This document shows positions 17,012 through 32,398 of a stretch of 38,818 nt of DNA, piece after piece (position 1 is the stretch's first letter; every line of letters begins with the position of its first letter). The notes beneath the pieces are model-generated. The model did not search any database. It was not told the origin of the DNA and worked only from the letters and a program-made list of their open reading frames with translations. The translations under genes and the position numbers were made by a program. Source of the stretch: a virus; the IMG/VR virus record IMGVR_UViG_3300025430_000051, positions 1 to 38,818 of that record; one strand, 5' to 3'.

Positions 17012-17015
17012 GTAA

Positions 17016-17041
17016 GGTGGGGGCTTAGGCTCCCACTCTTT
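17016..17041 (+). terminator. Probable weak rho-independent terminator
   Basis: An 8-bp stem (17017-17024 with 17029-17036, one G-U wobble) around a TTAG loop is extended by one possible wobble pair (17016/17037) and followed by TCTTT. The stem is strong but the T-run is short, so it may act as an attenuator after the repeat-protein gene rather than a full stop. It lies in the 42-base gap before the gene at 17054. Confidence 0.55.
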
Positions 17042-17053
17042 AAGGAATACATC

Positions 17054-17833: not shown

Positions 17834-18354
17834 TGCCTAGCAAATCGCCTGCTCAACATCGACTGATGGAAGCCGCCGCCCACACCAAGGGTGGCTTTGG
17901 TGGCGTTCCTCAAAAGGTTGGCAAAGAGTTCGTCAAAGCTGATGAGGGGAAGAAGATGGCAAAAGGTGGCTTGTATGCCAATATCCATGCTAAACAGGAG
18001 CGGATATCCCATGGATCAGGCGAAAAAATGCGTCGTGTCGGAGCTAAGGGTGCCCCAACCAAGGAAGCCTTTATTGAGTCAGCTAAAACTGCGAAGAAAA
18101 AAGATGGTGGTGGCGTCAACTTGGCTGTCAGTCGTGGTGAAAAATTATCGACAGACAGGGGTGCTGGACTAACTGCCAAGGGCAGAGAAAAGTACAATCG
18201 AGAGACTGGTAGCCATCTCAAAGCACCCCAGCCTCATGGTGGCTCAAGAAAAGATTCGTTTTGTGCAAGGATGTCTGGAGTAGTTAAACACGCCAAGGGT
18301 GATGCACCAAGAGCAAAAGCATCATTAAAGCGTTGGAACTGTTCTGGTTGGTAA
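17833..18354 (+). CDS. Basic protein with DUF6321-like C-terminal domain, 173 aa
   Basis: Function unknown. Three segments are visible. Residues 1-30 (SPAQHRLMEAAAH) form a short helix unit. Residues about 42-75 carry MAKGGLYANIHAKQER and GSGEKMRRVGAKGAPT, a signature I know from many phage proteins and one that includes the basic glycine tag. Residues about 110-173 match the DUF6321 pattern, with LTAKGREKYNRETGSHLKAP, RKDSFCARMSG and the ending KRWNCSGW. The conserved Cys/Trp/Arg residues of the last segment are intact. It is strongly cationic, so nucleic-acid contact is plausible but not shown. It starts on the stop codon of the previous gene. Confidence 0.65.
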   Translation: MPSKSPAQHRLMEAAAHTKGGFGGVPQKVGKEFVKADEGKKMAKGGLYANIHAKQERISHGSGEKMRRVGAKGAPTKEAFIESAKTAKKKDGGGVNLAVSRGEKLSTDRGAGLTAKGREKYNRETGSHLKAPQPHGGSRKDSFCARMSGVVKHAKGDAPRAKASLKRWNCSGW

Positions 18355-18363
18355 GGAAAAAAC

Positions 18364-19437
18364 ATGGCTTTCTCAGGAACCGTAAGCACCACAGTGATAA
18401 ATACGCAGACGGTCATTGACCATGCTGTGCGTCGCTGTGGAAAATTAGCTGAAGAGATCACTGACGAGCAACAACAGTTTGCAAGAGAAAACTTGTATTT
18501 TCTTTTGTCAAACATGATCAACCGTGGAATACAGTATTTTGCCATCCAAAAGACCGTTGTAGGCTTGATTGCCAACCAGTATGAGTATCTGCTACCCTTA
18601 GGTGCAAACGACGCTCTAAACGTCTTATATCGACAATTGGCAAGACCTTCTGGCTCATACACATCTGGTGCTGGTGGCGTTGTTGCCAACATCAGCGATG
18701 GAAACACATCGACTTACTGCCAGCAAACTAACCCCAATAGCTACTTTCAAGTTGATTATGGGACATCAAACCCCCAATACATTGGCTCAATAGGCATCAT
18801 GCCTTATGTGGCAAACTTTGGAACAGCAACTTGGAGCTACTATTTGCAAGCTTCGAGCGATGGGGTGAACTGGCAGACCATTTACACAGGTACAAATGTG
18901 ACTGTGACTGATGGGCAGTGGGTGTGGCAGGATGTGGACCCCGGCTTTAACGTCGAGTTCTACCGAATCCAAGCCTTCAATGGCACAACTTTGGCCCTTA
19001 GAGAGTGGTTTTTAGGCAATAACAGCACAGAAATTGAGATGTCTCGTCTAAATAGGGACGATTACACCAATTTGCCCAACAAAAATTTCACTGCTAACCA
19101 GCCTTTTCAATATTATTTTCAACGAACCATCAATCAGCCTACCATGACGCTCTGGCCTGTGCCAAATACGTCATTTGTGCAGATGACTGTGTGGTATTCA
19201 GCCCAGATTGAGGACGTTGGAACGCTTCAACAGCAGTTAGCCATCCCACAAAGGTGGTATGAAGCCACTATTTTCATGCTAGCTCACAGAATGAGCTTGG
19301 AGTTGCCACAAGTTGACCCAACTCGCATAGCTTATTTGGAGAAAATGGCTGACAAGTTCCTCTACGACGTCGAGCAAGAAGAGCGTGACAAGTCTCCTGA
19401 GTACTTCTCACCGAATATTTCAGTTTATACGAGGTAG
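18364..19437 (+). CDS. Head-tail adaptor-like protein with inserted discoidin-like domain
   Basis: Likely a portal-to-tail adaptor of the P22 gp4 / T7 gp11 kind. The N-terminal helices (residues 12-55, VIDHAVRRCGKLAEEITDEQ) and the C-terminal part (about 225-340: PTMTLWPVPN, IPQRWYEATIFMLAHRMS) make the adaptor. Between them, residues about 95-215 form an inserted beta-sandwich like F5/8 type C (discoidin) domains. It shows ISDGNTSTYC, YFQVDYG, a SWSYYLQASSDGVNW-like core (here WSYYLQASSDGVNW), FYRIQAF and then REWFLGN. Such domains usually bind sugars or other ligands, so this adaptor may display a binding surface on the neck. The start ATG has AAGGAAAAAAC upstream. Confidence 0.65.
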   Translation: MAFSGTVSTTVINTQTVIDHAVRRCGKLAEEITDEQQQFARENLYFLLSNMINRGIQYFAIQKTVVGLIANQYEYLLPLGANDALNVLYRQLARPSGSYTSGAGGVVANISDGNTSTYCQQTNPNSYFQVDYGTSNPQYIGSIGIMPYVANFGTATWSYYLQASSDGVNWQTIYTGTNVTVTDGQWVWQDVDPGFNVEFYRIQAFNGTTLALREWFLGNNSTEIEMSRLNRDDYTNLPNKNFTANQPFQYYFQRTINQPTMTLWPVPNTSFVQMTVWYSAQIEDVGTLQQQLAIPQRWYEATIFMLAHRMSLELPQVDPTRIAYLEKMADKFLYDVEQEERDKSPEYFSPNISVYTR

Positions 19438-19805: not shown

Positions 19806-20399
19806 ATGGCTAATGGCTTTACTTACTGCTGGTCAGATCATAAAACTGCAAAAGTTTATGTGGGAGTGCATCTTGGAAATACAGATGATGGATATGTTTG
19901 CTCATCCAAGTCTATGTTGAAAGAATATTCTGACAGACCAAGTGACTTTACTAGAGAAATTTTGTTTGAAGGTGACTATGACATTTGTGCAAGTTTTGAA
20001 AAAGCATTGATCTCTGGTTTGTTTAAGCAAGACAAAAATACTTTTTATAACAGGTCAAATGGCAAAAAAATTATTTTTGATGATGAGATTAAAAAGAAAA
20101 TAAGTGACAAACAAAAAGGCACAAAAATGCCAAATGGTCATTTAGAAAAAATGCTAAAGGCCAGAGAAGGATTGACTCCACACAGAAAGGGAGTTGTTTT
20201 AACTGATGAAATCAAGAGAAAAATCAGTGATTCAAAAAAGGGTTGTGTTGGTCCTAATAAGGGTCGAATAATGCCCGAAGAACAGAAATTGAAATTAAAA
20301 TTAGCACATCTTGGAAAGAAGCATTCTGAAGAACACAAAAAATCTGTGTCTTTAGCTGTGAAAGAAGTTTGGGCTAAACGCAAAAAACAAGGAGCCTGA
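19806..20399 (+). CDS. GIY-YIG-like endonuclease with NUMOD3 DNA-binding repeats
   Basis: Probable free-standing homing-type endonuclease. The N-terminal 90 residues look like a diverged GIY-YIG nuclease: a strand FTYCW (5-9), YVGVH (18-22) standing for the YIG strand, GYVCSSK, FTREILFEGDY, then a helix with a likely catalytic Glu in SFEKALI and a conserved YNR. The C-terminal half has NUMOD3-type repeats (KKISDKQKGTKMPNG, KRKISDSKKGCVGPNKGR, LAHLGKKHSEEHKKS) that bind DNA along the groove. It is AT-rich and Lys-rich compared with its neighbours and sits between intact structural genes, which suggests later insertion. No intron or intein is visible around it. Confidence 0.75.
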   Translation: MANGFTYCWSDHKTAKVYVGVHLGNTDDGYVCSSKSMLKEYSDRPSDFTREILFEGDYDICASFEKALISGLFKQDKNTFYNRSNGKKIIFDDEIKKKISDKQKGTKMPNGHLEKMLKAREGLTPHRKGVVLTDEIKRKISDSKKGCVGPNKGRIMPEEQKLKLKLAHLGKKHSEEHKKSVSLAVKEVWAKRKKQGA

Positions 20400-20400
20400 C

Positions 20401-22536
20401 GTGGCGAATGTGACGATTACACAATTACCAGTAGCAGGTGCCCTAACAGGCTCTGAGGCTGTTCCTGTTGTCCAAAATGGGGTGACGGTACAGACTACGA
20501 CAGGTGCTATTCAGGCTACCTCAAACCTGAGCACATATAGCTTTTTGACGGTCAATGCTACGCCTGCCTTGCCTTCATCACGTTATTTGACCACAGGTAC
20601 AGGTTTGGGATTGACTGATGGTGGAGCAGGGTCAAGCTATCAAATTTATTTGAATGGTACTTCTGGTTCCTTAGAGGCATCTGGTGTTGGCGTGATTGCC
20701 AAGACAAGTGCAGGAACCATTACACCAAGAACAATCACGGTCACAGGTTCTGGTTTATCAATTACAAATGGTAATGGAGTAGGTGGTAATCCAACAATTT
20801 CAACGAGTGGGGTGCTGGCAAACTTTGCCGCAGTCTCAGGCACTGGCCTTCTCTCAGTCAATGGCACCACCTTAGGCTACAAAACCATCACAGGAACCTC
20901 TGGTCAAATTGCTGTTACCAATGGCGATGCTTCGACTGGTAATCCCACAATTGGTTTGACCACAACTGCTGTAACTGCAGGCACCTATAACTACGCAACC
21001 ATCACCGTAGATGCTTATGGAAGATTGACCTCAGCTTCTAGTGGAACTGCTCCTTCTGGTGGTACGGTTTCTTCAATCACTGCTGGTGCTGGCCTAACAG
21101 GTGGAACAATCACCACTATTGGTACGATTGCTTTAGCGACCGTAGGAACTGCTGGAACATATGGTAGTGCATCTACTGTACCTGTCATCACAACAAACGC
21201 TTATGGGCAGATTTCAAGCGTTACAAACACAAACATAGCTATATCTGCATCTCAGATAACCAGCGGAACCTTACCAATCGCACAAGGTGGTACAAATTCC
21301 ACTGCATCTCCAACTTCTGGTGGTGTAGCGTATGGTAATGGTACTTCTTTTGCCTTTACATCTGCTGGTACATCTGGTCAAGTTTTGACAAGTAATGGAG
21401 CAAGTCCTCCAACATGGTCAAATGCCGCTGGTACAGGTACAGTTACAGCCGTTTCTGTGGTGTCTGCAAACGGTTTTGCAGGAACGGTAGCCAATAGCAC
21501 CACGACGCCTGCAATAACGCTTTCTACGACGATTACGGGGCTTTTGAAGGGTAATGGCACAGCGATAAGTGCCGCCACCTCAGGCACAGACTACGCTCCT
21601 CCCACTTCTGGAACCTCAATCCTTTATGGAAACGGTTCAGGTGGGTTCAGCAACGTCACAATTGGTACAAATTTGACCTTCTCTGGTGGCACATTGAACG
21701 CTACTGGTGGTGGCTCAATGGTTTATCCTAGTGCTGGTATAGCTAACTCCACAGGATCAGCTTGGGGAACATCTTATTCGACCACAGGATCAGGCACAGT
21801 CGTTGTTTTGGCTACTAGCCCTACCTTGGTGACTCCCAACCTTGGAACGCCTTCTGCGGCAGTTTTAACTAACGCCACAGGCTTGCCCATTTCCACTGGT
21901 GTAAGTGGCCTTGGAACAGGTGTTGCAACAGCTTTGGCAGTCAACACAGGGTCAGCAGGTGCAGTTGTTTTGTATAACGGTGCACTAGGAACTCCTTCAT
22001 CTGGTACTTTGACCAATGCTACAGGATTGCCTTTAACCACTGGTGTGACTGGTACTTTACCTATTGCCAATGGTGGAACAAACGCCATTACAGCTTCTGC
22101 AGGCTTCAATAACCTATCTCCAATCACCACAACTGGTGACTTGATCATTGGGAATGGTACAAACAGTGCCACAAGATTAGGTATTGGTACCAGTGGTTAT
22201 GTATTAACGTCAAACGGTACTACTGCAACGTGGGCGGCATCCACAGGTGGAGTGACTAGCTTTAGTGCTGGAACCACAGGATTTACCCCAAATACAGGAA
22301 CTACTGGAGCAATTACTCTAGCTGGTACTTTGGCAACCACAAATGGTGGAACTGGCATAACAACAACTCCATCAAATGGGGCTTTGCTCATAGGCAATGG
22401 AACTGGTTACACCAGTTCAACATTAACGGCAGGATCAAACATAACCATTACAAATTCAAGTGGTGGTATTACAATAGCATCCAGTGGAGGTGGTTCTACT
22501 TCTGCCTATGCGTATGCTTGGTTCATTTCAAGATAA
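20401..22536 (+). CDS. Tail fibre / appendage protein with repeated modules, 711 aa
   Basis: Probable long fibre. It starts with GTG at 20401 (AAGGAG upstream, just after the endonuclease gene). The N-terminus (VTITQLPVAGALTGSEAVPV, residues 3-22) is a common fibre attachment start. The body is a string of 15-40 residue beta-helix-like modules: TGLPISTGVSGL, TGLPLTTGVTGTLPIANGGT, PSNGALLIGNGTGY, GTSGQVLTSNG and similar. It is nearly free of charged residues, rich in Gly/Thr/Ser/Ala, and ends YAYAWFISR. No chaperone domain is visible at the C-terminus. The modules recur in the next gene and in the one at 28924, pointing to exchange of fibre segments. Confidence 0.75.
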   Translation: MANVTITQLPVAGALTGSEAVPVVQNGVTVQTTTGAIQATSNLSTYSFLTVNATPALPSSRYLTTGTGLGLTDGGAGSSYQIYLNGTSGSLEASGVGVIAKTSAGTITPRTITVTGSGLSITNGNGVGGNPTISTSGVLANFAAVSGTGLLSVNGTTLGYKTITGTSGQIAVTNGDASTGNPTIGLTTTAVTAGTYNYATITVDAYGRLTSASSGTAPSGGTVSSITAGAGLTGGTITTIGTIALATVGTAGTYGSASTVPVITTNAYGQISSVTNTNIAISASQITSGTLPIAQGGTNSTASPTSGGVAYGNGTSFAFTSAGTSGQVLTSNGASPPTWSNAAGTGTVTAVSVVSANGFAGTVANSTTTPAITLSTTITGLLKGNGTAISAATSGTDYAPPTSGTSILYGNGSGGFSNVTIGTNLTFSGGTLNATGGGSMVYPSAGIANSTGSAWGTSYSTTGSGTVVVLATSPTLVTPNLGTPSAAVLTNATGLPISTGVSGLGTGVATALAVNTGSAGAVVLYNGALGTPSSGTLTNATGLPLTTGVTGTLPIANGGTNAITASAGFNNLSPITTTGDLIIGNGTNSATRLGIGTSGYVLTSNGTTATWAASTGGVTSFSAGTTGFTPNTGTTGAITLAGTLATTNGGTGITTTPSNGALLIGNGTGYTSSTLTAGSNITITNSSGGITIASSGGGSTSAYAYAWFISR

Positions 22537-22545
22537 AGGTAAACC

Positions 22546-23151
22546 ATGTTAGTTTTAGACGCAACAACCAAATCAATAACGGTGCAGATGGGAGCTTCGG
22601 CTACCACTACGAACCCATCTTTTGTAACTGCTTACTCAGATGACACTGGAAGTAGTTTTGTAGAAGGTTCTAGTGATGGAGCATTGAATGGAACATCCCA
22701 AGTTACGCTTGTTTCAGCTCCAGCATCGTCAACTAGACGGTTAATCAAAACCATCTATATTGCAAATATTGACACTGTTGCCAACACATTAACCATTAGT
22801 TATAACGACAATTCAACTTTAAGAACAATTGTTAAAGTAACACTTCAAGTTGGAGATACTTGGTCAACTGATGGTACAACAGATACAAATGGTAATTTAA
22901 AAACAGTTATTGGTTCTGTTAATTTAGCAAATGTAACAGGAACATTGGCATATGGTAATGGTGGTACAAGTGGTACAGCTACTCCTACTGCTGGTGCTGT
23001 GGCATATGGAACAGGTAGTGCATATGCATTCACTTCTGCTGGCACATCCGGCCAAGCACTTCTTTCAAACGGTTCTGGTACTCCCACATGGGGCACAGCA
23101 GGTATTTCAACAGGTAAAGCCATTGCGATGGCTCTAATTTTCGGATTCTAA
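22546..23151 (+). CDS. Virion protein with fibre-type C-terminal module, 201 aa
   Basis: Two parts. Residues 1-115 form a beta-rich domain (LVLDATTKSITVQMG, STRRLIKTIYIANID, DTWSTDG) that I associate with structural proteins of aquatic phages. Residues 130-185 are a fibre module (GTLAYGNGGTSGTATPTAG, FTSAGTSGQALLSNGSGTP) closely matching part of the preceding fibre. The C-terminus is ISTGKAIAMALIFGF, a hydrophobic end. It lies 9 bases after the preceding gene. Probable minor tail or fibre-tip protein; exact role unknown. Confidence 0.6.
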   Translation: MLVLDATTKSITVQMGASATTTNPSFVTAYSDDTGSSFVEGSSDGALNGTSQVTLVSAPASSTRRLIKTIYIANIDTVANTLTISYNDNSTLRTIVKVTLQVGDTWSTDGTTDTNGNLKTVIGSVNLANVTGTLAYGNGGTSGTATPTAGAVAYGTGSAYAFTSAGTSGQALLSNGSGTPTWGTAGISTGKAIAMALIFGF

Positions 23152-23161
23152 GGAGCATTAA

Positions 23162-23566
23162 ATGGCAAATCCAAATATTGTTAACGTAACGAGTATTTAT
23201 GGAAATACGGCATATGTTATTCCAAGTACCACAGGTGCAACAACATCTTGGACTTATAACGGTACAACAACGCTGACAGGATTGACGCCTGCCACGAATA
23301 CCGTCAATAAGATCGACAACATTGTTGTGTCAAATACAACCTCAAGTGCGGCCACCTGTACTGTGGGTATTGGTAACAATGCCACCTTTGGTAGCGCAAC
23401 TGTAGTTTCATATTTGGCATATCAGATCAGTGTTCCACCAAATGCTTCAGTGATTGTGACCGATAAGACAACAGCGTTTTATTTGACAGAAAACCAATCA
23501 GTTGGCGTTACATCTGGTACTGCATCTGCTTTGACATACACAGCATCGTTTGAAGCAATTAGTTAA
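23162..23566 (+). CDS. Small structural protein, 134 aa
   Basis: A small beta-rich protein beginning MANPNIVNVTSIYGNTAYV, a start I associate with small virion proteins in aquatic phage fibre regions. Later parts (VNKIDNIVVSNTTSSAATCTV, VPPNASVIVTDKTTAFYLTE) look like alternating strands of a compact sandwich. It is rich in Thr/Ser/Asn, with no signal peptide or membrane segment. AAGGAG stands a few bases before the ATG. The position between fibres suggests a fibre adaptor or tip, but this is inferred from context alone. Confidence 0.6.
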   Translation: MANPNIVNVTSIYGNTAYVIPSTTGATTSWTYNGTTTLTGLTPATNTVNKIDNIVVSNTTSSAATCTVGIGNNATFGSATVVSYLAYQISVPPNASVIVTDKTTAFYLTENQSVGVTSGTASALTYTASFEAIS

Positions 23567-23575
23567 GGACTGACC

Positions 23576-24448
23576 ATGAGTTTGACTCATCAAGGCGGTT
23601 TCATCTCTGCTCAATACAATGGGCTGAACTACCCTGTTCAAACAGTAGAGTATCTTGTTGTCGCTGGAGGTGGTTCTGGTTCGTCTTATTGGGGTGGGGG
23701 CGGTGGCGCTGGTGGATTACTAACTGCAACAGGCTATTCTGTAACCATAGGATCATCAATTACTGTGACTGTTGGTGCTGGAGCATCTACTGCTTCTGCT
23801 GGGTCTGGTGGATCACAAGGAGCAAACTCTGTTTTTGGATCAATAACTGCAATTGGCGGTGGTGCTGGTGCATATGCTTCCAATAGCTCTGGTGGTGGTT
23901 CTGCTGGAGGAGCAGGAAGTTCTGGAACTGCACAAACTGGAGGCGCAGGAACATCTGGGCAAGGAAATGCAGGGGGTAATGCCTCAACATCTGGCAATGG
24001 GTATTCTTGTGGTGGAGGAGGCGGTGCAGGCTCTGCTGGTGGTAATGCTGGTGTAAATTTGGCTGGTAATGGTGGCGCAGGTTTGGGTAGTTCTATAACT
24101 GGTTCTCCTGCTATTTATGCGGCTGGAGGTGGCGGTGGTGTTCGCACAGGAACACCTGGTCTTGGTGGAGCATCAGGCTCTGGTAATAATGGTAATGGTG
24201 GCAACGGAGATTCTGGAAGCAATCCTGGAATCAATGGTCTTGCAAATACTGGCAATGGTGGTGGTGGAGGTGGTGGTTCAGGTAGTGGATCATCTGAAAC
24301 AGGTGGAGCAGGCGGTTCAGGAATCGTAGTCATCAGATACCCTTCCTATCTATCCCAAGCCACATCAACAACAGGCTCACCCACATATTATCAAGCTCTT
24401 GGTTATAACGTCTATGTTTTTAAAGCCAGTGGCACAATCACATTCTGA
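23576..24448 (+). CDS. Glycine-rich adhesin-like protein, paralogue A
   Basis: Probable receptor-binding protein. After a 23-residue N-terminus (LTHQGGFISAQYNGLNY) comes the signature VEYLVVAGGG (about 24-33) of the Gly_rich_2 type. It is followed by about 200 residues dominated by Gly, Ala and Ser (GGGGGAGGLL, TSGQGNAGG, YAAGGGGG), then GSGIVVIRYP and a terminal strand unit ending SGTITF. Glycine-rich blocks of this sort can fold as stacked polyglycine helices, as in T-even gp38 adhesin; that comparison is structural analogy. It is the first of four related domains spread over 23576-28914. Confidence 0.7.
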   Translation: MSLTHQGGFISAQYNGLNYPVQTVEYLVVAGGGSGSSYWGGGGGAGGLLTATGYSVTIGSSITVTVGAGASTASAGSGGSQGANSVFGSITAIGGGAGAYASNSSGGGSAGGAGSSGTAQTGGAGTSGQGNAGGNASTSGNGYSCGGGGGAGSAGGNAGVNLAGNGGAGLGSSITGSPAIYAAGGGGGVRTGTPGLGGASGSGNNGNGGNGDSGSNPGINGLANTGNGGGGGGGSGSGSSETGGAGGSGIVVIRYPSYLSQATSTTGSPTYYQALGYNVYVFKASGTITF

Positions 24449-24457
24449 GAACAAAAA

Positions 24458-26659
24458 ATGGCACAAGGTCTATTCACTCTCAAACAGCAGTTACAAGGCT
24501 TGATACAGAAGGCTTGGAGTAATCCATCTACTTATGCTGGTTCATTCCCAACAGGTAGCTTATCTCAATATTTGCAAGCAACATTGCCAGCAACTTTGTC
24601 TGGTCAATTTACAATTGAATTTTGGTACTATAGAAACACAACAGGCAACTCAAGTTATTTTACTTTGGGTGATGTTAATACTTCCACAGGATTAGAATTT
24701 TATATTGGTACAGGCGGTACGCTTAATCAACTTTATACCAATAATGCAACTTTATTGCAAAATACATCAACCAATCCTTATGTTTGGACTTACGTTGCTA
24801 TTACAAGGGATGCAAGTAACGTAATAAGAATGTTCATCAATGGCACATCAAATGGAACTACTGCAACAAATAGCAATGCTTTTTCAAGTACATTAAGACT
24901 TGGCGTTGAGTATTACAATGGAGCAATTGATGGTGGATGTAATGGTTTATTATCAAACTTTAGAATTTTAAATGGTACTTGCTTATACACATCTAACTTT
25001 ACTCCTTCATCATCTCCATTAAGCAATATTACAAACACAGCAATACTGACATTACAAAATTCAACAATTGTTGATAACTCAAGTAATGCTTTGTCAATTA
25101 CAAATAACGGTTCTGTTACTACTCAACAAGCATTTCCATTTACTGGCAATTCATCATACGCAACCCCCGCAGTTGAATACCTTGTTGTAGCAGGTGGTGG
25201 TGGGGGTGGATCAAATGATGGCTCTGGTGGAGGAGCTGGAGGATTGTTACAAGGAATATCAAATGTAACAGCAGGCGTATCTGTAACTGTAACTGTTGGC
25301 AGTGGAGGTGCAGGTGCAACTCCTAGCGGTACAGGAACCTCTGGTAACAATTCTGTTTTTGCAAATATTACATCTATAGGTGGTGGAGGAGGTTCTTCAT
25401 GGAACTCATCTACACCTACAAATGGATTAGCTGGTGGTTCAGGTGGTGGTGGCGGATTAAATGATAGTGGATCAATATCTGCGGTTGGTCAAGGTACTGC
25501 AAATCAAGGTAATGCTGGTGGGACTGGCTATGCTGGCGGTGGTAATGCGGGTATGGGTGGAGGTGGTGGAGGAGCAGGAACTGTCGGATTAAATGCTAGA
25601 TCGCTTGTGCCAGGTAACGGAGGCGCTGGTGTAGCATCGGCAATATCTGGAACAGTTACTACATATGCTGGAGGAGGTGGTGGTTCTCCATCAGCAAGTT
25701 CTTCAACTTTTGGTATTGGTGGTGTAGGTGGTGGTGGGACAGGAAATAATACTGCCGCTGGTGGTTCAGGAACTACTAATACAGGTGGTGGAGGAGGTGG
25801 CGGTGGATTTAATGGAACGGTTTGGGGTGGTGGCACAGGCGGATCAGGCATCGTCATCATTTCTTACCCAGATACCTATAACGCACCATCAGCATTGACA
25901 GGAACATATACTGCTTCTACAAGTGGCAGTGGTAGTATGAACTTTAATGGTTCTAGTAACAAAGTTACATATGCGTCATCATCTGCCATGAGTTTAAGTG
26001 GTCAATTTACAATTGAATGCTGGGTTTATTGGAATGGCTCATCTCCACCTTATCAAAATATTATTGGTTCAAATGATACTTTTTCTAATAATGCTTCTTT
26101 TATTAGAGTTTGGGGAACATCAGCTTTAAGTGCATTAGCAAGTAAAGTTGGAATTGGCAATGTTTCTCATGATAGTACATCAGCAGTTTATTCAACAAAT
26201 AATCTTATTGCAAATACATGGAATCACATAGCGGCAACAAGAGATAGTAGTAATATTATTCGTTTATTTATCAATGGTTTTTTAGAAAAAACAGGAACAA
26301 CTGATACAAGTTTATATGATTTTGGTCAAGGTGGGACTTGTGTAGGAGATTCACCTTGGGATGGAGCAAATGGCTGGTATTCTGGTTATATAACTAATTT
26401 AAGAATTATCAAAGGAACTTGTTTATATACAAGTTCTTTCACACCTAGCACAATTCCATTGACTTCTATTTCAGGAACATCGTTGTTATTGAATAGTGTA
26501 TCAGGAGCATATTTGCAAGATTCATCACCTAATTCTTTTTCCCCTACTTCTTCAATTTCTGTTTCAGCTCCTTGGAGCCAACTATCCCCATTTGCAACAG
26601 GACTAGGATACAAGAATCGTGTGTACACTTGGACTGGTAGCGGAACTGTGACGTTCTAA
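24458..26659 (+). CDS. LamG / glycine-rich / LamG adhesin-like protein, paralogue B
   Basis: A three-part, 733-aa surface protein. Residues about 30-215 form a concanavalin-like LamG sandwich: TIEFWYYRNTT, VWTYVAITRDASNVIRMFIN, LLSNFRILNGTCLYTSNFTP. Residues about 239-474 are the glycine-rich domain (VEYLVVAGGGGGG up to GIVIISYPDTY). Residues about 490-705 are a second LamG unit with the same landmarks (TIECWVYWNG, WNHIAATRDSSNIIRLFING, ITNLRIIKGTCLYTSSFTP). The end is again SGTVTF. The LamG units are paralogous to each other, which suggests duplication around the glycine-rich core. LamG folds often bind glycans, so a host-sugar role is likely but inferred. It starts 9 bases after paralogue A. 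Confidence 0.75.
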   Translation: MAQGLFTLKQQLQGLIQKAWSNPSTYAGSFPTGSLSQYLQATLPATLSGQFTIEFWYYRNTTGNSSYFTLGDVNTSTGLEFYIGTGGTLNQLYTNNATLLQNTSTNPYVWTYVAITRDASNVIRMFINGTSNGTTATNSNAFSSTLRLGVEYYNGAIDGGCNGLLSNFRILNGTCLYTSNFTPSSSPLSNITNTAILTLQNSTIVDNSSNALSITNNGSVTTQQAFPFTGNSSYATPAVEYLVVAGGGGGGSNDGSGGGAGGLLQGISNVTAGVSVTVTVGSGGAGATPSGTGTSGNNSVFANITSIGGGGGSSWNSSTPTNGLAGGSGGGGGLNDSGSISAVGQGTANQGNAGGTGYAGGGNAGMGGGGGGAGTVGLNARSLVPGNGGAGVASAISGTVTTYAGGGGGSPSASSSTFGIGGVGGGGTGNNTAAGGSGTTNTGGGGGGGGFNGTVWGGGTGGSGIVIISYPDTYNAPSALTGTYTASTSGSGSMNFNGSSNKVTYASSSAMSLSGQFTIECWVYWNGSSPPYQNIIGSNDTFSNNASFIRVWGTSALSALASKVGIGNVSHDSTSAVYSTNNLIANTWNHIAATRDSSNIIRLFINGFLEKTGTTDTSLYDFGQGGTCVGDSPWDGANGWYSGYITNLRIIKGTCLYTSSFTPSTIPLTSISGTSLLLNSVSGAYLQDSSPNSFSPTSSISVSAPWSQLSPFATGLGYKNRVYTWTGSGTVTF

Positions 26660-26668
26660 GGAATAAAA

Positions 26669-27535
26669 ATGAGTCAATCATATATCGGCGGAATCATCAC
26701 AGGAACATTAAACCCTTTGACATCTTTGCCTACTGCAACTGTAGAGTATTTGGTTGTGGCAGGTGGAGGTGGGGGTGGTGGCTATGATGGAGGTGGTGGA
26801 GCTGGTGGTTTATTAACTGCAAATAACTTTGCTGTAATCGCTGGTTCATCTTTAACTGTTACTGTAGGCAGTGGAGGTGCAGGAAGTTCTACTACTGGAG
26901 GTTCAGCATTAAATGGAACTAATGGTTCAAATTCAGTATTTTCATCTGTAACTGCAACTGGTGGTGGTGGCGGTGGTGGATTTTCTTCTGCTGGTTCATC
27001 AGGTGGTTCTGGTGGAGGTGGAGGTTATAGCGGTGGAGCATTTACTGCTGGTTCTGGAACATCAGGTCAAGGCTATGCAGGTGGGGTAGGTGGAACTTAT
27101 AGCGGGCCAACTTATGGTGGTGGCGGTGGTGGTTCTGGAAGTGTTGGTAGCGCAGCAACAACTGGACAACCTGGTAATGGAGGAGCAGGAACCTGCTCAA
27201 CAATTACAGGCTCAAGAGTTTTTTATGCAGGTGGCGGTGGCGGTGGTACTGATGGTGGAACTACCTTTGGGTTGGGGAATTCTGGTGGTGGTAATGGTGG
27301 CTGGAATACTACCTTGCTTGCTACAAGTGCTATTGCCAATACTGGTTCTGGAGGAGGTGCAGCAAGTGGAAATTTAGGACCTGCTGGCAATGGAGGATCA
27401 GGCATAGTCATTATTCGCTACCCTGCTAACTGTGCTCCTCCTTCCTCATTTGGTGGAGCGTCTACACCACAGGTTTATTACAATAATGGTTATCAAATTT
27501 ACGTCTGGACAAGTTCAGGCACAATTACTTTTTAA
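26669..27535 (+). CDS. Glycine-rich adhesin-like protein, paralogue C
   Basis: Close in layout to paralogue A (288 aa): a short N-terminus (SYIGGIITGTLNPLTSL), then VEYLVVAGGGGGGGYDG at about residues 26-42, a glycine-rich body with TSGQGYAGG and FYAGGGGGG, GSGIVIIRYP near residue 245 and a terminal YQIYVWTSSGTITF. The N-terminal 20 residues differ from those of its paralogues, so the shared unit is the glycine-rich domain plus the terminal strands. No charge clusters or catalytic motif. AAGGAAT precedes the ATG. Role inferred: alternative or additional receptor-binding tip. Confidence 0.7.
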   Translation: MSQSYIGGIITGTLNPLTSLPTATVEYLVVAGGGGGGGYDGGGGAGGLLTANNFAVIAGSSLTVTVGSGGAGSSTTGGSALNGTNGSNSVFSSVTATGGGGGGGFSSAGSSGGSGGGGGYSGGAFTAGSGTSGQGYAGGVGGTYSGPTYGGGGGGSGSVGSAATTGQPGNGGAGTCSTITGSRVFYAGGGGGGTDGGTTFGLGNSGGGNGGWNTTLLATSAIANTGSGGGAASGNLGPAGNGGSGIVIIRYPANCAPPSSFGGASTPQVYYNNGYQIYVWTSSGTITF

Positions 27536-27545
27536 GGAGTTTTAA

Positions 27546-28013
27546 ATGTCTCACTTTGCTCACGTTAATTCACAAGGTATCGTAGATAACGTCATTGTTA
27601 TCGAAGCAGAAACACTTGCACTTGGACACTGGGGTGACCCTTCTGAGTGGGTGCAAACAAGCTATAACACTCATGGTGGCGTACACAATGGTGGCGGTAC
27701 TCCTTTGAGAGCAAACTACGCTGGTATTGGTTACGTTTACGACAAAAACAACGATGTTTTCCATGCTCCACGTCCAGTAGACAGAAATGGTGTTACCTGT
27801 GATTCATTCACAATTGGCGCACCAACATGGCAATGGGTTAATCCTGTTGCTATGCCTGTCCATGAAGGCAAAATCTATGCATGGGATGAGCCTACAAAGG
27901 CTTGGGTTGATGTAACTCCTGTGGTTGAAGCCACTCCTACACCAACTCCTGAAGTTACACCCACCCCAACACCTACACCTGAAGTTACACCTACACCTTC
28001 AACTGGAGCCTAA
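27546..28013 (+). CDS. Fibre-region protein with Thr-Pro repeat tail, 155 aa
   Basis: The N-terminal 120 residues (HFAHVNSQGIVDNVIVIE, WVQTSYNTHGG, RANYAGIGYVYDKNNDVF, TWQWVNPVAMP) follow the pattern of a small protein I know from cyanophage and other aquatic phage tail-fibre regions. I do not know its activity. The last 35 residues are a low-complexity TPTPEVTP repeat, probably an extended flexible stalk. It lies between glycine-rich paralogues C and D, so it may be an assembly helper or small tail component. AAGGAG upstream of the ATG. The downstream gene starts two bases after the stop. Confidence 0.62.
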   Translation: MSHFAHVNSQGIVDNVIVIEAETLALGHWGDPSEWVQTSYNTHGGVHNGGGTPLRANYAGIGYVYDKNNDVFHAPRPVDRNGVTCDSFTIGAPTWQWVNPVAMPVHEGKIYAWDEPTKAWVDVTPVVEATPTPTPEVTPTPTPTPEVTPTPSTGA

Positions 28014-28014
28014 T

Positions 28015-28914
28015 ATGGCGCAGTATTCTGGAGTCTGGACGCTATCTCAAGTAAGTCAAGCTGTCAAAGCACAGAATTGGAGTGGAATTAGCCCTCCTGT
28101 TGTTGAGTACCTTGTGGTTGCTGGTGGCGGTGGTGGTGGTTATGCTAATGGCGGGGGTGGCGGTGCAGGTGGTTTGCTTTCTGGGTTTTCTTCCATAACG
28201 CAAGGAATTCAATGTTGGGTTACTGTTGGTGCTGGTGGCACAGGAGGAACTACAGCAAGTAATGCAGGTACTGGTGGAAATTCAGTTTTATTAGCTACAT
28301 CATCAAGCGCGACCACAGGAAATTTTGTAGCATCAGGTGGGGGTGGTGGGCAAGGTTATGCAACTGCTGGTAGCTCTGGTGGTTCTGGCGGAGGCGGTGG
28401 CAGATGGGATGCTGGACAAACATCTGGTGGTGCAGGTATTTCAGGCCAAGGAAACGCTGGCGGTACTGGTGGAAGTTCAAATAATTATGTAAATGGTGGT
28501 GGTGGTGGTGCTGGAACAGTTGGATTGCCAGCAACATCAATAGCTGGTAATGGGGGTGCAGGAATTGCAAGTTCTATTTCAGGCACAGTAACGGCTTATG
28601 CTGGCGGTGGTGGTGGAGGTATTGGAAATCAAACAACCACTTACGGAAGGGGTGGTGTTGGGGGTGGAGGTAATGGAGGTGGTGATTCATCTAATGCTAC
28701 TGCTGGAACTGCTAATACTGGAGGTGGTGGTGGTGGTTCAGGTGGGTTTAATGGGCCTGCAACAGGAGCCGCAGGTGGTTCAGGTATTGTCATAATCCGT
28801 TACCCCAACACCTATAAACTAGCCGCATCCACAACAGGTTCAGGAACAACACAAACCACGGCTAATGGGTATTACATCTACACATTCACAGCATCAGGTT
28901 CAATCACATTCTAA
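28015..28914 (+). CDS. Glycine-rich adhesin-like protein, paralogue D
   Basis: A 299-aa protein with N-terminus MAQYSGVWTLSQVSQAVKAQ, VEYLVVAGGGGGG at about residues 31-43, a glycine-rich body, GSGIVIIRYPNTY and a terminal YYIYTFTASGSITF. The frame is open further upstream through the Thr-Pro region of the previous gene, but ATG at 28015 is preferred. It lies immediately after that gene's stop and begins with a sequence resembling N-termini of other fibre-region proteins; the upstream extension would merely be a shadow of the repeat. Fourth copy of the glycine-rich unit; probable receptor-binding protein. Confidence 0.7.
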   Translation: MAQYSGVWTLSQVSQAVKAQNWSGISPPVVEYLVVAGGGGGGYANGGGGGAGGLLSGFSSITQGIQCWVTVGAGGTGGTTASNAGTGGNSVLLATSSSATTGNFVASGGGGGQGYATAGSSGGSGGGGGRWDAGQTSGGAGISGQGNAGGTGGSSNNYVNGGGGGAGTVGLPATSIAGNGGAGIASSISGTVTAYAGGGGGGIGNQTTTYGRGGVGGGGNGGGDSSNATAGTANTGGGGGGSGGFNGPATGAAGGSGIVIIRYPNTYKLAASTTGSGTTQTTANGYYIYTFTASGSITF

Positions 28915-28923
28915 GGACAAAAA

Positions 28924-30384
28924 ATGTCAGCATCAGGTTACACACCAATCATTCTTTATAACTCACCTACTGCTACAAATGTGCCTTCAAACGCCAATTT
29001 AGCTTTGGGTGAGCTTGCTATCAATACCACTGATGGCATTCTTTACTACAAAACCACTGGTGGAACAGTCACAGCTCTAGCAAAAGCTTCTTCTGTTGGT
29101 GGAAACTTTACCAACATTGTGGTGTCTGGTACATCCCAACTAGGTACAGTTTCTTCTGGAACATGGAACGGTTCTACCATAGGTGTTGCCTACGGTGGAA
29201 CTGGCCTTACCTCTACACCTTCTAACGGTCAAATTGACATTGGAAATGGTACAGGATTCACAAGAGCTACCTTGACTGCTGGAACTGGTGTTTCTATTGT
29301 CAACACCTCTGGTGGCATCCAAATCTCTGCTACTGGTACAGGTGGTGGTACGGTTACAAGCGTCTCAGGTTCAGGTGGCTCGACTGGTTTAACTTTCTCA
29401 GGAAGCCCAATCACTACCTCAGGCACCCTTACCCTTGGTGGCACATTAAACGTGGCTAATGGAGGCACTGGAGTGGCTTCTACGCCTGCCAACGGTCAAA
29501 TATTGATTGGCAACGGTTCAGGCTATACAGCCAATACTTTGTCTGCTGGATCAGGTATTACGATTAGTAATGGTTCTGGCAACATAACAATTTCGTCAAC
29601 TGGTGGCAGTTCTGGAGTTACAGGTATTTATGTTGGAAGTGGAATTTCAGCATCTTCGCCTACTGGTAATGTTACATTGAACAACACTGGTGTTTTGACA
29701 GTGAATGGATCAACAGGAAACATTACTAACGTAGCAATTACCTCTGCAAACAATACATTTAGTGGCTCAAACACTTTTAATACTGGAACAGTTACTGTAA
29801 ATAGTGTTATCACAGTAAATGGGTTGGCTGGTTTTGGAGCCACTAACCCCGGTTCCTCAATCAGTGGGGGTAGTTCTACTTATGCATATTTTAAAACTAC
29901 CTCAAACGCTTATTTCCCTGCACTTTTTGATTGCCAGTCAAACGCTAGTTCTGCGGCTACGTTTAATACTTTTTATACATCGTCTTCACTTATTTCGCTT
30001 TTTAGTGGAAACATTTCTAGTTACACCAATGTTGGAAGCATAACCACCAATGGAACTTCAAGTTTTTTCAATGGAACATCTGATAGAAGACTAAAAACCA
30101 ATATTACAAGTTTGTCATCAAGTGGTACATTTATTGATGCTTTACAACCTAGAATTTTTACTTGGATTAAAACTGGGTTACAAGATTCTGGTTTTATTGC
30201 TGATGAAATTCAACAAGTCATCCCAAATGCAGTTCATGGGGAACCAAATGCAGTAGATGAAAACGGAAATCCTGTTTACCAACAAGTTGACGCTTCATCT
30301 GCTGAAATGATTGCAAACATGATTGCTGAATTACAATCACTTCGCAAGCGTATTTCTGCGCTTGAATCTAACACAAAGGCGTAA
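28924..30384 (+). CDS. Tail fibre with C-terminal S74 intramolecular chaperone domain
   Basis: A 486-aa fibre. The N-terminus (SGYTPIILYNSPTATNVPSN, LGELAINTTDGILYYK, about residues 3-42) is typical of phage fibres that trimerise. The body has repeated fibre modules (GVAYGGTGLTSTPSNGQIDI, VANGGTGVASTPANGQILI). The C-terminal 100 residues are a Peptidase_S74 domain: SDRRLKTNI with the cleavage Ser at 386 and Lys at 391, then GFIADEIQQVIPNAV and a final coiled coil (MIAELQSLRKRISALE). This domain folds the trimeric fibre and then cuts itself off. All key residues are present. The ATG follows paralogue D by 9 bases with AAGGACAAAAA upstream. Confidence 0.85.
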   Translation: MSASGYTPIILYNSPTATNVPSNANLALGELAINTTDGILYYKTTGGTVTALAKASSVGGNFTNIVVSGTSQLGTVSSGTWNGSTIGVAYGGTGLTSTPSNGQIDIGNGTGFTRATLTAGTGVSIVNTSGGIQISATGTGGGTVTSVSGSGGSTGLTFSGSPITTSGTLTLGGTLNVANGGTGVASTPANGQILIGNGSGYTANTLSAGSGITISNGSGNITISSTGGSSGVTGIYVGSGISASSPTGNVTLNNTGVLTVNGSTGNITNVAITSANNTFSGSNTFNTGTVTVNSVITVNGLAGFGATNPGSSISGGSSTYAYFKTTSNAYFPALFDCQSNASSAATFNTFYTSSSLISLFSGNISSYTNVGSITTNGTSSFFNGTSDRRLKTNITSLSSSGTFIDALQPRIFTWIKTGLQDSGFIADEIQQVIPNAVHGEPNAVDENGNPVYQQVDASSAEMIANMIAELQSLRKRISALESNTKA

Positions 30385-30387
30385 CAA

Positions 30388-30564
30388 ATGGAAATCACAC
30401 TCAAATACACATTAGATGAAGTCAATGCTTTGTTGACTGCTTTAGGACAACTTCCTTTTAGCACTTCTGCAGGACTCATTAGCAACATTCAATTGCAAGC
30501 AACCCCCCAAGTTCAGGCTCAACAGCCTGCTGAAGCTACAGAAGAACCTAAGGAGCAATCATGA
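30388..30564 (+). CDS. Small hypothetical protein, 58 aa
   Basis: A short gene starting four bases after the S74 fibre stop, with its own stop overlapping the next start (ATGA). The N-terminal half reads EITLKYTLDEVNALLTALGQLP, an amphipathic helix unit that I have seen at the start of small phage proteins encoded near fibre and lysis genes. The C-terminal half is Gln/Ala/Pro/Glu-rich and probably disordered. Function unknown; no membrane segment. Coding status is supported by tight packing and amino-acid pattern. Confidence 0.6.
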   Translation: MEITLKYTLDEVNALLTALGQLPFSTSAGLISNIQLQATPQVQAQQPAEATEEPKEQS

Positions 30565-30932: not shown

Positions 30933-31649
30933 ATTGATCCGTTCACGCTGGTCGCTTTGGCTTCGGGGGCACTCAAGTTCATTAAAGACTCCTGCGAGAT
31001 GTACAAAGAAGGACGACAGCTTGTTACTGAAGCAGTCCATGAAGTTCAAGGCGTGGCCAAAGATGTACAGAATGTTAAAAAGTCAACGAAAGGCTTATTT
31101 GGCTTTTTTGCTCAGATCTTTGGACGTGAAGAGGAAAAGCATGAGGTACAGCCTCAACAGAATAAAACCGTTAAGCCAAAGAGAAAATCAGCCCTAGAGT
31201 TTGACGAAAACTTAATCTTCTCTCAAGTTGCAGAATCTTTGACTAAGTTTTTTCAAGCCTACAATGGGTTAAAGAATTATGTCAAAGAGCAAGAAGAGTT
31301 GGCCTTACACGCTGGAGATGACGAGGGACAGGACATTGCGATAAAATTGGTCATTGCCAATTTGCAAATGGAAAAGCTGAATACGGAGCTATCTGATTAC
31401 ATGGTCTACCATGTGCCAGCCGAGCTGAAGGATTTGTACAGCAGGGTTAACAACACGATTGGCGATATTGCGACCAAGCAAAGATTGGCAAGGAGGGAAG
31501 AACTGCTGAAACAACGGAGGGCGGCATGGCAACGAAGGCAAAAGCTGGATCAAATCAAAACCAGAGCCGTGGTCATAACGGTTACCCTTCTGATGATAGC
31601 GTGGACGTGGGCGATGATGATAAGTCTGACTCACTTTTCCTCGTATTAA
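30933..31649 (+). CDS. Helical protein with C-terminal membrane anchor; probable ATT start
   Basis: About 238 aa. No ATG or GTG exists at the 5' end. An ATT at 30933, two bases after the previous stop, would give an N-terminus reading (M)DPFTLVALASGALKF, which resembles the MDPF starts I associate with small phage proteins. The next option is TTG at 30957. The body is long alpha-helix with a basic linker (PQQNKTVKPKRKS, about 77-89) and a long coiled region to residue 200. Residues about 214-232 (VVITVTLLMIAWTWAMMIS) form one membrane segment. It overlaps the next gene by 124 bases in another frame. Function unknown; its place in the lysis region suggests a membrane-associated role. Confidence 0.6.
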   Translation: MDPFTLVALASGALKFIKDSCEMYKEGRQLVTEAVHEVQGVAKDVQNVKKSTKGLFGFFAQIFGREEEKHEVQPQQNKTVKPKRKSALEFDENLIFSQVAESLTKFFQAYNGLKNYVKEQEELALHAGDDEGQDIAIKLVIANLQMEKLNTELSDYMVYHVPAELKDLYSRVNNTIGDIATKQRLARREELLKQRRAAWQRRQKLDQIKTRAVVITVTLLMIAWTWAMMISLTHFSSY

Positions 31650-31768
31650 CAGTTCTTTTAATGTGCGTTTTGTTGTTATTGCTTCCTTTAATTGCTTGGA
31701 TGTATGTTGACATAAGGATGATGGAGATCAGGGTTGAGAAAGCCGTGAAAAAAGTGGATAACCAATGA
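31526..31768 (+). CDS. Small membrane protein overlapping the previous gene
   Basis: 80 aa. The start at 31526 lies inside the preceding gene in a different frame, but a strong GGAGG (31516-31520) with 5-base spacing supports it. The N-terminal 35 residues are hydrophilic and disordered (Asn, Gln, Asp). Residues about 37-59 (LFLVLTVLLMCVLLLLLPLI plus the following residues) form a single long membrane segment, and a basic/acidic amphipathic tail follows (MEIRVEKAVKKVDNQ). The 119 bases after 31649 belong only to this frame and keep the membrane pattern. Its stop overlaps the lipoprotein gene. Possible holin or holin-like protein; unproven. Confidence 0.6.
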   Translation: MATKAKAGSNQNQSRGHNGYPSDDSVDVGDDDKSDSLFLVLTVLLMCVLLLLLPLIAWMYVDIRMMEIRVEKAVKKVDNQ

Positions 31769-31998
31769 AATACGCTCTATTGTTAACCTCTGTGTTTCTT
31801 TTGTCGTCTTGTAACGATACCTATAGGTATTATTGTCAGGATCCAGATAACTTTGGCAAAGAGCGTTGTCAGAAACCAAGATGTGAATTCAATCAGGATT
31901 GTCCTGATTACTTAGTCGCCCCCATATTGGAGAAGAAAATTGAAGGAACTACTACTGCTCCTGCTCAACAGCCCCAAGGAACGCCTGTCTGCCGATGA
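31765..31998 (+). CDS. Small Cys-rich lipoprotein, 77 aa
   Basis: The N-terminus has a bacterial lipoprotein signal: positive Lys2, hydrophobic core (ALLLTSVF) and a lipobox LSSC at 13-16, so Cys16 should be lipidated after cleavage. The mature part holds four more Cys in a pattern (YYCQDPDNF, RCQKPRCEF, QDCPDY) that I associate with small lipoproteins of many phages. It ends with a Thr/Pro/Gln tail. Located in the lysis cluster, overlapping its neighbours on both sides (ATGA at the start, 59 bases with the next gene). A role in the periplasm or outer membrane at lysis is possible but unknown. Confidence 0.68.
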   Translation: MKYALLLTSVFLLSSCNDTYRYYCQDPDNFGKERCQKPRCEFNQDCPDYLVAPILEKKIEGTTTAPAQQPQGTPVCR

Positions 31999-32398
31999 GA
32001 TAGAAGTCCGTGTAAGGGCTTTTGTGATCATTATGGTGACGTTGATCTTTGCGTTTATTACATTTGCGCTATTGTATTCAGTGACGTTTGTGAGCCAGCC
32101 TATCAAACAGATGGCTCCAATAGATCAAGCCTATACTAAGATGCTCAACGACATTGTTTTGTTGATTGTGGGCGGTATCGGTGGTATTCTGACCAAAGGG
32201 CTGACCAACGAAGCCACCAATATGATGAACGCCGCAAAGTCGAATAAGGATGCTTATGTCGCACCGCCACCCCCACCACCTGCTCCTATTATTATGGCTA
32301 ATCCTAATTGGACTCCACCTCCTGCGCCAGTTAGTCCGCCGACGTTAGAATCAGATGCTGAGAGAGAAAGAATGGCAAGAGCTAGGGCGGGTTTGTAA
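31940..32398 (+). CDS. Putative holin, two membrane segments, 152 aa
   Basis: TTG start at 31940 with GGAG at 31929-31932 (7-base spacer); no ATG is available in frame. Two membrane segments are visible: about residues 27-49 (FVIIMVTLIFAFITFALLYS) and about 71-88 (DIVLLIVGGIGGILTKGL), separated by a short loop with PIDQAYTK. A Pro-rich segment and a charged C-terminus (ERERMARARAGL) follow. This layout fits a two-span holin, and the gene lies directly upstream of the spanin and endolysin genes. The Pro-rich extension is longer than in most holins. The start codon choice is the weakest part. Confidence 0.6.
   Translation: MKELLLLLLNSPKERLSADEIEVRVRAFVIIMVTLIFAFITFALLYSVTFVSQPIKQMAPIDQAYTKMLNDIVLLIVGGIGGILTKGLTNEATNMMNAAKSNKDAYVAPPPPPPAPIIMANPNWTPPPAPVSPPTLESDAERERMARARAGL

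Follow-up and report, generated by a model that had tools for sequence, protein, structure and literature searches.

Background

Work on phage host range has mostly dealt with cultured phages and with one or two of their fibres. We consider here an array of four glycine-rich genes (GR1 to GR4) in IMG/VR record IMGVR_UViG_3300025430_000051, a virus record of 38,818 bp classed as linear; the whole record was analysed and is referred to below as the window. Among known designs, the four-tail-spike locus of the Ackermannviridae comes nearest. At the level of single domains, the precedents are the gp24 tail fibre of phage Pam3, described as having a glycine-rich domain with a conserved stem and a hypervariable tip, together with a chaperone, gp25 (PMC9608196), and the polyglycine-rich 'brush' domains of mycobacterial siphoviruses, which another report, citing the Bxb1 structure, presumes to touch lipid-rich walls (PMC13243795). 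Set beside these systems, the locus joins heads of a known domain family to short N-terminal tags of two alternating kinds in a recurring order of genes, and we argue that it is probably a four-slot tail receptor-binding cassette with exchangeable heads.

Results

Four genes with one head domain and two kinds of tag

The four genes lie on the plus strand and occupy slots 1 to 4: GR1 (23576-24448; 290 amino acids [aa]), GR2 (24458-26659; 733 aa), GR3 (26669-27535; 288 aa) and GR4 (28015-28914; 299 aa, from the ATG at 28015, because the TTG start at 27925 given in the open reading frame [ORF] list would overlap the preceding gene). Each protein contains a Gly_rich_2 domain (PF21722), at aa 21-255 in GR1 (nucleotides [nt] 23636-24340; 75.6 bits), aa 236-470 in GR2 (nt 25163-25867; 76.8 bits), aa 23-251 in GR3 (nt 26735-27421; 81.9 bits) and aa 30-263 in GR4 (nt 28102-28803; 74.0 bits), against a cut-off of 24.3 bits (E 2e-20 to 9e-23), and all four also match phrog_2295 (E 1e-42 to 9.8e-46). 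Because all four scores exceed the Pfam cut-off and are accompanied by the phrog_2295 match, the resemblance reflects homology and is more than low complexity; a low-complexity artefact is ruled out by the four scores together with the confident fold described below. A six-frame search of the record with PF21722 recovered GR3 and GR4 but neither of the other two, a comparison with NCBIfam yielded nothing useful, and tblastn of GR3 against cultured phages gave no match, a result that is no proof of absence since the low-complexity filter probably masks the query.

The preliminary description of this DNA had read one unit per gene in four genes, starting VEYLVVAGGG and ending GSGIV(V/I)I(R/S)YP, in proteins that end SG(T/S)(I/V)TF, and this stands (the last residues are SGTITF in GR1 and SGTVTF in GR2). 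Its tandem array of four is partly right: there are four genes, but a non-glycine gene, g27546 (27546-28013), breaks the array between GR3 and GR4. GR2 is laid out as a LamG-like region, the Gly_rich_2 domain and a LamG domain (aa 498-652, nt 25949-26413; PF13385, 102 bits, E 4.5e-29, in two stretches), so that its terminal SGTVTF is set apart from the glycine-rich unit. The LamG stretches match several PHROGs, some of them labelled baseplate wedge subunit. We considered GR2 as a toxin or an enzyme and rejected this, the Toxin_R_bind_N and Sialidase Pfam matches being below cut-off and on the LamG-like region, where we read them as a shared lectin-like fold.

Each gene was also said to have a different N-terminus. 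The four N-terminal tags do differ, but that of GR1 resembles that of GR3, and that of GR2 resembles that of GR4. We built one hidden Markov model (HMM) for each slot N-terminus and accepted matches at an independent E value (i-E) below 0.01 (self-hits follow by construction); no shuffled N-terminus was matched at this threshold. By these models the A-type anchor tag of GR3 (MSQSYIGGIITGTLNPLTSLPTA; 26669-26737, plus strand) is related to the GR1 tag at 23576-23641, and the B-type anchor tag of GR4 (MAQYSGVWTLSQVSQAVKAQNWSGISPP; 28015-28098, plus strand) to the GR2 tag at 24458-24520. Across slots, the model of tag 1 matches 12 slot-3 proteins, tag 3 matches 10 slot-1 proteins, tag 2 matches 9 slot-4 proteins and tag 4 matches 11 slot-2 proteins. 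Since matches among slot proteins (non-slot proteins are matched as well) are confined to the own or the alternate slot, 1 with 3 and 2 with 4, the tags fall into two families that alternate as A-B-A-B. The glycine-rich domains pair likewise, with mean identities of 57.1% for slots 1 and 3 and 57.4% for slots 2 and 4, against 53.6-54.2% for the other cross pairs. Lengths above 350 aa are reached by 1 of 80 distinct A-slot proteins versus 38 of 81 B-slot proteins.

An A-like motif followed by a B-like motif within one N-terminus was found by text pattern in 23 proteins, two of which are truncated versions of others; these fused N-termini precede glycine-rich and other parts, some of them FN3-like by eye. 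In the annotated phage DSL-LC04, two proteins match both A and B tag HMMs at an i-E of 0.05 or better, and a g27546 relative is encoded nearby. The A and B tags may therefore be one bipartite anchor that is split in the cassette, a suggestion drawn from sequence.

A cassette conserved among dissimilar phages

Relatives of the window were gathered with the tail adaptor (80), with g27546 (56 loci) and with g23162, which opens the cassette (the best 80 of 565 or more), some contigs overlapping; L-numbers such as L096 label these viral loci or contigs. The cassette order is g23162-GR1-GR2-GR3-g27546-GR4. The full set of GR genes, with g27546 separating the last two, is present in 41 of the 82 loci that have any slot-labelled gene (by rule-based ORF labelling, with five second loci of one contig dropped and near-identical relatives kept); within these 41, some slots are marked only as 'GR-like', the text pattern having missed the tag, and a few GR1 or GR4 genes are cut by the contig end. 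Many of the 41 incomplete loci are short or cut contigs (not gone through singly), and in L190 the chaperone gene is placed after GR4. Copy-number change of slots, which the preliminary description had proposed to look for, was not seen: no slot label is duplicated within a locus, though slots 2 and 4 can contain a double glycine-rich unit. We therefore read the array as a conserved cassette and not as a loose reservoir.

Presence of the cassette is independent of backbone similarity. L014 and L015, whose adaptor is 89% identical to that of the window, have one different glycine-rich gene at the place (blastp to GR1-GR4 is blank at 1e-4), and L020 and L021 (adaptor 83%) have no gene there with the start or end motif of the unit; L080 (adaptor 63%) has GR1 and GR2 of the window type. 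The major-head-like protein of the window is matched in 11 of 34 records (four at 89-95%, one at 68% and six at 39-43%), and the terminase likewise in 11 of 34, one of these at E 4e-4 only. Three long records, L127 (58.8 kb), L193 (88.9 kb) and L204 (164 kb), carry the cassette and show no match to the window capsid or terminase, with the proviso that such records may be fragments; many of the other non-matching records are short, so their silence weighs less.

Two relatives show further arrangements. L075 has a single 1122-aa ORF (15882-19250) with four glycine-rich start motifs, that is, four heads in one polypeptide, and L193, an 89-kb phage contig, holds in the intervals 1358-6517 and 10374-15891 a four-slot cassette, more glycine-rich genes and a second g27546 copy.

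Heads and slots are exchanged between phages

Exchange between phages is real. The sharpest case is a tract of 729 bp in GR4 (28096-28824, plus strand) that differs from L096 by 7 mismatches (99.0% identity) and lies between flanks of 75-76% identity (22 mismatches in 91 bp on the left, 27 in 108 bp on the right). On the left the tract ends shortly ahead of the VEYLVVAGGG codons (28102-28131), on the right just past GGSGIVIIRYP (28774-28806). Compared region by region (identical over aligned bases, for L096-L097, L096-window and L097-window in this order), the chaperone gives 345/351, 234/351 and 234/351, the GR4 tag 81/87, 67/87 and 65/87, the glycine-rich domain 444/693, 698/705 and 447/693, and the GR4 tail 84/105, 85/105 and 73/105. 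Chaperone and tag are thus 67-77% identical between the window and L096 and 93-98% identical between L096 and L097, and the regional identities make L096 a combination of an L097-lineage chaperone and tag with a window-lineage head. The window form of GR4 occurs in three other viral records (L084, L085 and L086), and L228 spans its 3' part.

In GR3, the L029/L087 type and the L097/L098/L101 type share a tract of 925 bp at 97.0% identity, which begins at codon 10 and ends 13 bp beyond the stop; elsewhere DNA identity between the same L029-type and L097-type pair is 70% in GR1, 65% in g27546, 71% in GR4 and 56% in g23162. L032 and L089 share the swapped GR3 allele group (96-98% aa identity), with at least three records on each side, whose independence as samples is unchecked. 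The two lineages also share the end of GR1 and the head of GR2 (94.6% over 904 bp).

A screen for tracts returned 27 rows, which amount to these three cases (GR4, GR3 and GR1-GR2) and two short tracts, one of 599 bp between L025 and L053 (phages that share 4.5 kb in all) and one of 268 bp between L116 and L125. The same rule yields 95 non-GR tracts, those among the 25 listed lying mostly around the adaptor of related phages; tract counts alone are therefore no proof of a hotspot, and the evidence is the discordance between neighbouring genes. A discordance screen of 66 loci gave 17 pairs, 15 of which repeat the L029-type/L097-type GR3 case over near-identical loci. Two candidates were dropped as recent exchanges for their high synonymous divergence (dS): GR2 of L127 and L135 (95% aa, 88% nt, dS 0.44) and GR3 of L114 and L118 (89% aa, dS 0.62). 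For other routes to variation, no inverted repeat of at least 20 bp that could serve phase variation by inversion was found within 22500-30500, and no PF00078 reverse transcriptase match, as for a diversity-generating retroelement, was found in the 38.8-kb record, which is linear and maybe a fragment.

Several of the insertions between slots are GIY-YIG, HNH or Endonuclease_VII genes. They lie between GR2 and GR3 and between GR3 and g27546 in L029, between GR1 and GR2 in L108, between GR2 and GR3 and between g27546 and GR4 in L118, and between g27546 and GR4 in L127; the junction of the third GR gene with g27546 carries one in L099, L114, L122 and L127. By similarity to seeds, an endonuclease is found inside the cassette in 14 of 70 loci with at least two slots, near-identical loci included. 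The swapped GR3 slot has an endonuclease on both sides in L029, and L097 is without a gene between these slots. In the window, a homing-endonuclease-like gene (19806-20399, plus strand; NUMOD3, PF07460 E 1.3e-9; phrog_314 E 2.2e-15) lies in the tail-fibre region, 3.2 kb upstream of GR1.

A predicted phage-adhesin fold for the head

The evidence on fold is a single-chain prediction of one of the four GR proteins, GR3. Its AlphaFold2 model (115 homologues) has a mean predicted local distance difference test score (pLDDT) of 92.4 and a predicted TM-score (pTM) of 0.89, the tag excepted; residues 1-20, the tag, have a mean pLDDT of 47-58 and no helix in the model, and are a low-confidence region. 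Compared with the PDB by VIA-align, the model matches the Bxb1 tail-tip chain 9d93_Qa (Z 13.4, 169 residues, 3.1 Å) and the Pam3 fibre 7ypx_A (Z 13.2, 166 residues, 2.6 Å); beyond these and a second Pam3 entry, the next rows are ALK/LTK at Z 5.5 or less. The top matches in BFVD are glycine-rich proteins of uncultured Caudovirales, with Pelagibacter phage HTVC025P at rank 8. With GR3 alone, phmmer found no match among PDB sequences. The three-layer polyglycine-sandwich adhesin of T-even gp38 and S16 is missing from the fold-match lists of GR3, which excludes nothing.

Eight variable segments lie between invariant glycine runs, at GR3 residues 73-76, 103-109, 119-127, 141-149, 162-168, 195-201, 211-218 and 233-239. 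We place them at the probable tip of the head because in Pam3 the glycine runs form the stem and the variable part the tip. The proposal that the units are receptor-binding tips is very probably right, judged by the model fold, the genomic position and the chaperone-like neighbour, and the GR proteins are most likely tail adhesins with a folding helper.

A putative chaperone gene between slots 3 and 4

Directly after GR3, g27546 (plus strand; 155 aa) encodes a putative fibre-assembly chaperone (phrog_7759, E 2.6e-21) with a Thr-Pro repeat tail. Its model (pLDDT 91) consists of strands and a low-confidence Pro-rich tail, with one helix of at least four residues (21-24). The best match of the N-domain is Pam3 gp25 (7ypx_a; Z 5.7, 54 residues, 2.2 Å), followed by chain 5yvq_B of the Mu fibre-chaperone complex (Z 2.6), and no other of the 269 aligned chains reaches a Z of 2. 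As these Z scores are low, the weight comes from the identity of the two matched proteins and from synteny. Upstream sequence of 1.5 kb or more is available for 90 copies of g27546; in 88 of these the nearest preceding gene listed is a GR gene, in 73 within 60 bp. A scan of genome contigs gave 21 loci with a g27546 relative, 20 in contigs of metagenome-assembled genomes and one in a Pelagibacteraceae record, and in 19 of the 21 the fetched stretch contains a glycine-rich ORF. Among annotated phages (23 match g27546), five of seven opened records have a protein of 18-33% glycine directly before the relative; in DSL-LC04 two genes separate the glycine-rich protein from it, and in Synechococcus phage S-SSM5 the glycine-rich gene is about 2.8 kb away. 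The Thr-Pro tail corresponds to a 30-bp tandem repeat at 27931-27991 (87% matches) and is missing from several relatives.

Genomic setting

The window encodes a terminase, a portal, a major-head-like protein and tail-fibre-like proteins. With the tail adaptor as query, the closest annotated record is MW202545 (Manatee Spring; 57 kb, circular), whose matching protein, annotated as tail adaptor, is 55% identical, followed by the Caulobacter phages GB2A, RW, RLK and KcrB at 41% each. GR1-GR4 stand in the tail-fibre region, with two repeat-rich proteins and g23162 upstream and, downstream, a tail fibre with a C-terminal S74 intramolecular chaperone (28924-30384, plus strand; PF13884, E 2e-10), a neighbour that varies among relatives. 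The conserved first cassette gene, g23162 (23162-23566, plus strand; 134 aa), has relatives that are very common in viral contigs (at least 565 viral stretches encode one), yet tblastn gave one match in 50,697 phage records, annotated 'putative lectin'. The six junctions from g23162 to the S74 gene measure 9-10 nt each, but 1 nt before GR4, and at four of the six the stop codon merges with a ribosome-site-like TAAGGA.

Two observations lie outside the array. The position 10941-11363 matches that of a MW202545 gene annotated 'chaperonin 10 kd subunit' and may encode a phage GroES-like co-chaperonin; at 31526-32398, overlapping small ORFs before the endolysin, one with a lipoprotein-like start (LLSSC), have by eye the look of a spanin pair.

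Discussion

We propose that each gene would combine a short slot-specific anchor tag (type A in slots 1 and 3, type B in slots 2 and 4), a TNF-like/glycine-rich head with the stem and tip modelled on Pam3, and a short C-terminal strand. The tag would dock the protein at a fixed site on the tail, the head would contact the host, and g27546 would aid the folding of the glycine-rich heads. Anchors would be kept while homologous recombination, acting close to the conserved segments VEYLVVAGGG and GSGIVIIRYP, swaps the heads; alternatively, whole slots would be swapped close to gene junctions. The free-standing homing endonucleases found between slots may make such exchange more frequent. What computation shows is the domain family, the fold of the model, the order of the slots, the two families of tags, the exchanged tracts and the inserted endonucleases; receptor binding, the place of the loops at the tip, docking by the tags, the chaperone role and the part of the endonucleases in exchange are inferred from these.

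A number of results weigh against this proposal. Receptor binding and location in the virion are themselves conclusions reached computationally; the Foldseek TM-scores of the GR3 model against solved phage chains are low (0.32-0.38), and the family sequence profile reaches Pam3 at E 0.07 only. The Z of 5.7 between g27546 and gp25 is lower than the best Z of 7-8 typical of the tool for models without a clear match, and the g27546 model is without the C-terminal helical trimerisation domain of gp25; the protein may therefore work like gp25, and we do not assign it to the gp25 family. The right end of the GR4 tract is unexplained by L097, the L096 tail being 80% identical to L097 and 81% to the window. 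The L096 form of GR4 comes from one 5.5-kb record, and a 77-bp exact pattern over its 5' junction occurs in no other viral contig; because there is this one record, L096 GR4 may be an assembly chimera, though the tract differs from the window at seven sites. One protein only (L211) matches both A and B tag HMMs at an i-E below 0.01, so that the fused anchor rests mainly on the looser text pattern. The clustering of endonuclease sites speaks for the proposal, as the cassette makes up 9.9% of the bases and contains 8 of 15 over-cut-off sites (binomial p 3e-5; whole-record search with three families in 24 records, counted after removal of two near-duplicate records and one duplicate site, with manual comparison of positions), but it is suggestive only, since the families were selected after being sighted in cassettes and the sites may share descent. 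Positive selection in loops, which the preliminary description had raised, is not borne out: the ratio of nonsynonymous to synonymous change (pN/pS) is 0.15 in loops versus 0.12 in the core, purifying in both (pooled over 9 close pairs, several sharing sequences, with loops defined from the variability of a largely overlapping alignment).

Within the proposal of a receptor-binding cassette, the arrangement of the four proteins may take two forms. It is quite possible that they are independent, unbranched adhesins at separate tail or baseplate sites, with different receptors or jobs (primary and secondary) and no mutual contact. The tags are conserved slot by slot, single slots can be exchanged, and different jobs would fit the single-headed A-slot proteins (79 of 80 at most 350 aa) beside the many longer B-slot proteins; the fixed order, the A-B-A-B pairing and the 23 A+B proteins found by text pattern suggest instead one site for both tags. 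These same features speak for a branched or heteromeric complex, which we hold possible, if tentatively, in which A and B are the halves of an ancestral bipartite anchor, with GR1+GR2 and GR3+GR4 as A:B pairs on one stalk; here the fused N-termini (including two in DSL-LC04) join the precedent of two N-terminus classes among the four tail spikes of the Ackermannviridae (PMC11414711). Besides the single protein that passes both HMMs at the stricter cut-off, the pairing has to contend with tags of only about 20-30 residues, that of GR3 modelled at low confidence, with baseplate-wedge PHROG matches that in GR2 fall on the LamG stretches, and with the lack of T4 gp10-like domains by Pfam (no XD match in GR1-GR4 at E up to 1, though XD may lack a Pfam model). 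The most far-reaching version, in which a bipartite A+B anchor was split and duplicated to A-B-A-B, the A:B adhesin pairs sit on one platform and junction endonucleases drive head swaps between otherwise dissimilar phages, is doubtful.

Two other accounts were weighed. That the GR proteins decorate or stabilise the virion, vary by chance and bind no receptor is unlikely: ALK and LTK do use a similar fold outside phages (Z about 5, as is also stated for Pam3 gp24; PMC9608196), but the two close matches of known structure are chains of a phage tail fibre and a phage tail tip, the genes sit in the tail-fibre region with an S74 fibre as neighbour, and the variation falls between the glycine runs. 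The idea of a recombination reservoir, put forward in the preliminary description, holds insofar as exchange occurs between phages; shuffling between slots is at most rare, and a role of the extra copies as donors that move among slots or multiply by slippage is very improbable. In its favour, cross-slot identity is 56.2% within the same genome versus 55.1% between different genomes, an excess that none of 2000 random draws attained and that points the same way in each of the six slot pairs (for example 58.5 versus 57.1% for slots 1 and 3). Set against this, the glycine-domain tree is largely slot-faithful (15 slot-label changes, with a minimum of 3, versus 59-63 in the five shuffles shown), cross-slot identity never exceeds 67.3%, no slot label is duplicated and every copy has its own start codon; concerted evolution between slots was rejected, the same-genome excess being small only. 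Slippage on GGT/GGA repeats was rejected, as the longest in-frame run of a single glycine codon is 3, 3, 3 and 5 in GR1 to GR4 and the only tandem arrays inside GR genes are two weak ones with 74-78% matches. Across relatives, then, number is conserved and sequence is exchanged, which answers the proposed check on conservation of both in two different ways.

The four-slot format recurs in uncultivated-virus contigs, including the three long ones unmatched in capsid and terminase, and in the clearest example only the head has been swapped. Readable rules (a fixed tag, a free head and recurring boundaries) could predict which host-recognition parts of uncultivated phage genomes change, natural allele pairs are available for testing host recognition, and a testable link is raised between homing endonucleases and the exchange of receptor-binding genes. 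If A:B pairing and endonuclease drive were true, single heads would be swapped between phages with assembly undisturbed.

Among the titles and abstracts listed in the literature we found no account of a four-slot glycine-rich cassette in which short tags alternate and which has one chaperone-like gene and endonucleases at its junctions, most subscription journals being outside the coverage; on PF21722, Gly_rich_2 and phrog_2295 the papers listed had just the phrase 'glycine-rich domain-containing protein', and none was on phages by title. The domain family and the fold of the heads are both known, as are arrays of several receptor-binding proteins. Membership of all four heads in PF21722 and phrog_2295 is a domain label, silent on the four-slot cassette and the tags, and the Bxb1 tail-tip chain shares the head fold by the GR3 model in a different type of phage. 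Pam3 gp24/gp25 (PDB 7YPX; PMC9608196) is alike in the TNF-like/glycine-rich head fold of the GR3 model, in glycine runs with variable segments between them and in the small gene with a gp25-like beta-sandwich N-domain (by model) directly downstream of a head gene. It differs in having one fibre protein with an alpha-helical docking shaft, where the cassette has four paralogues with tags of about 20-30 residues, and here one helper gene, lacking the helical domain in its model, would serve four heads. The TSP1-TSP4 tail spike proteins of the Ackermannviridae (PMC11414711) are alike in that a locus carries four receptor-binding proteins, keeps two N-terminus classes and has variable, replaceable receptor domains; no tail-spike fold like theirs was found for the GR proteins. 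The tail spikes form a branched complex; the GR proteins have glycine-rich heads on very short tags.

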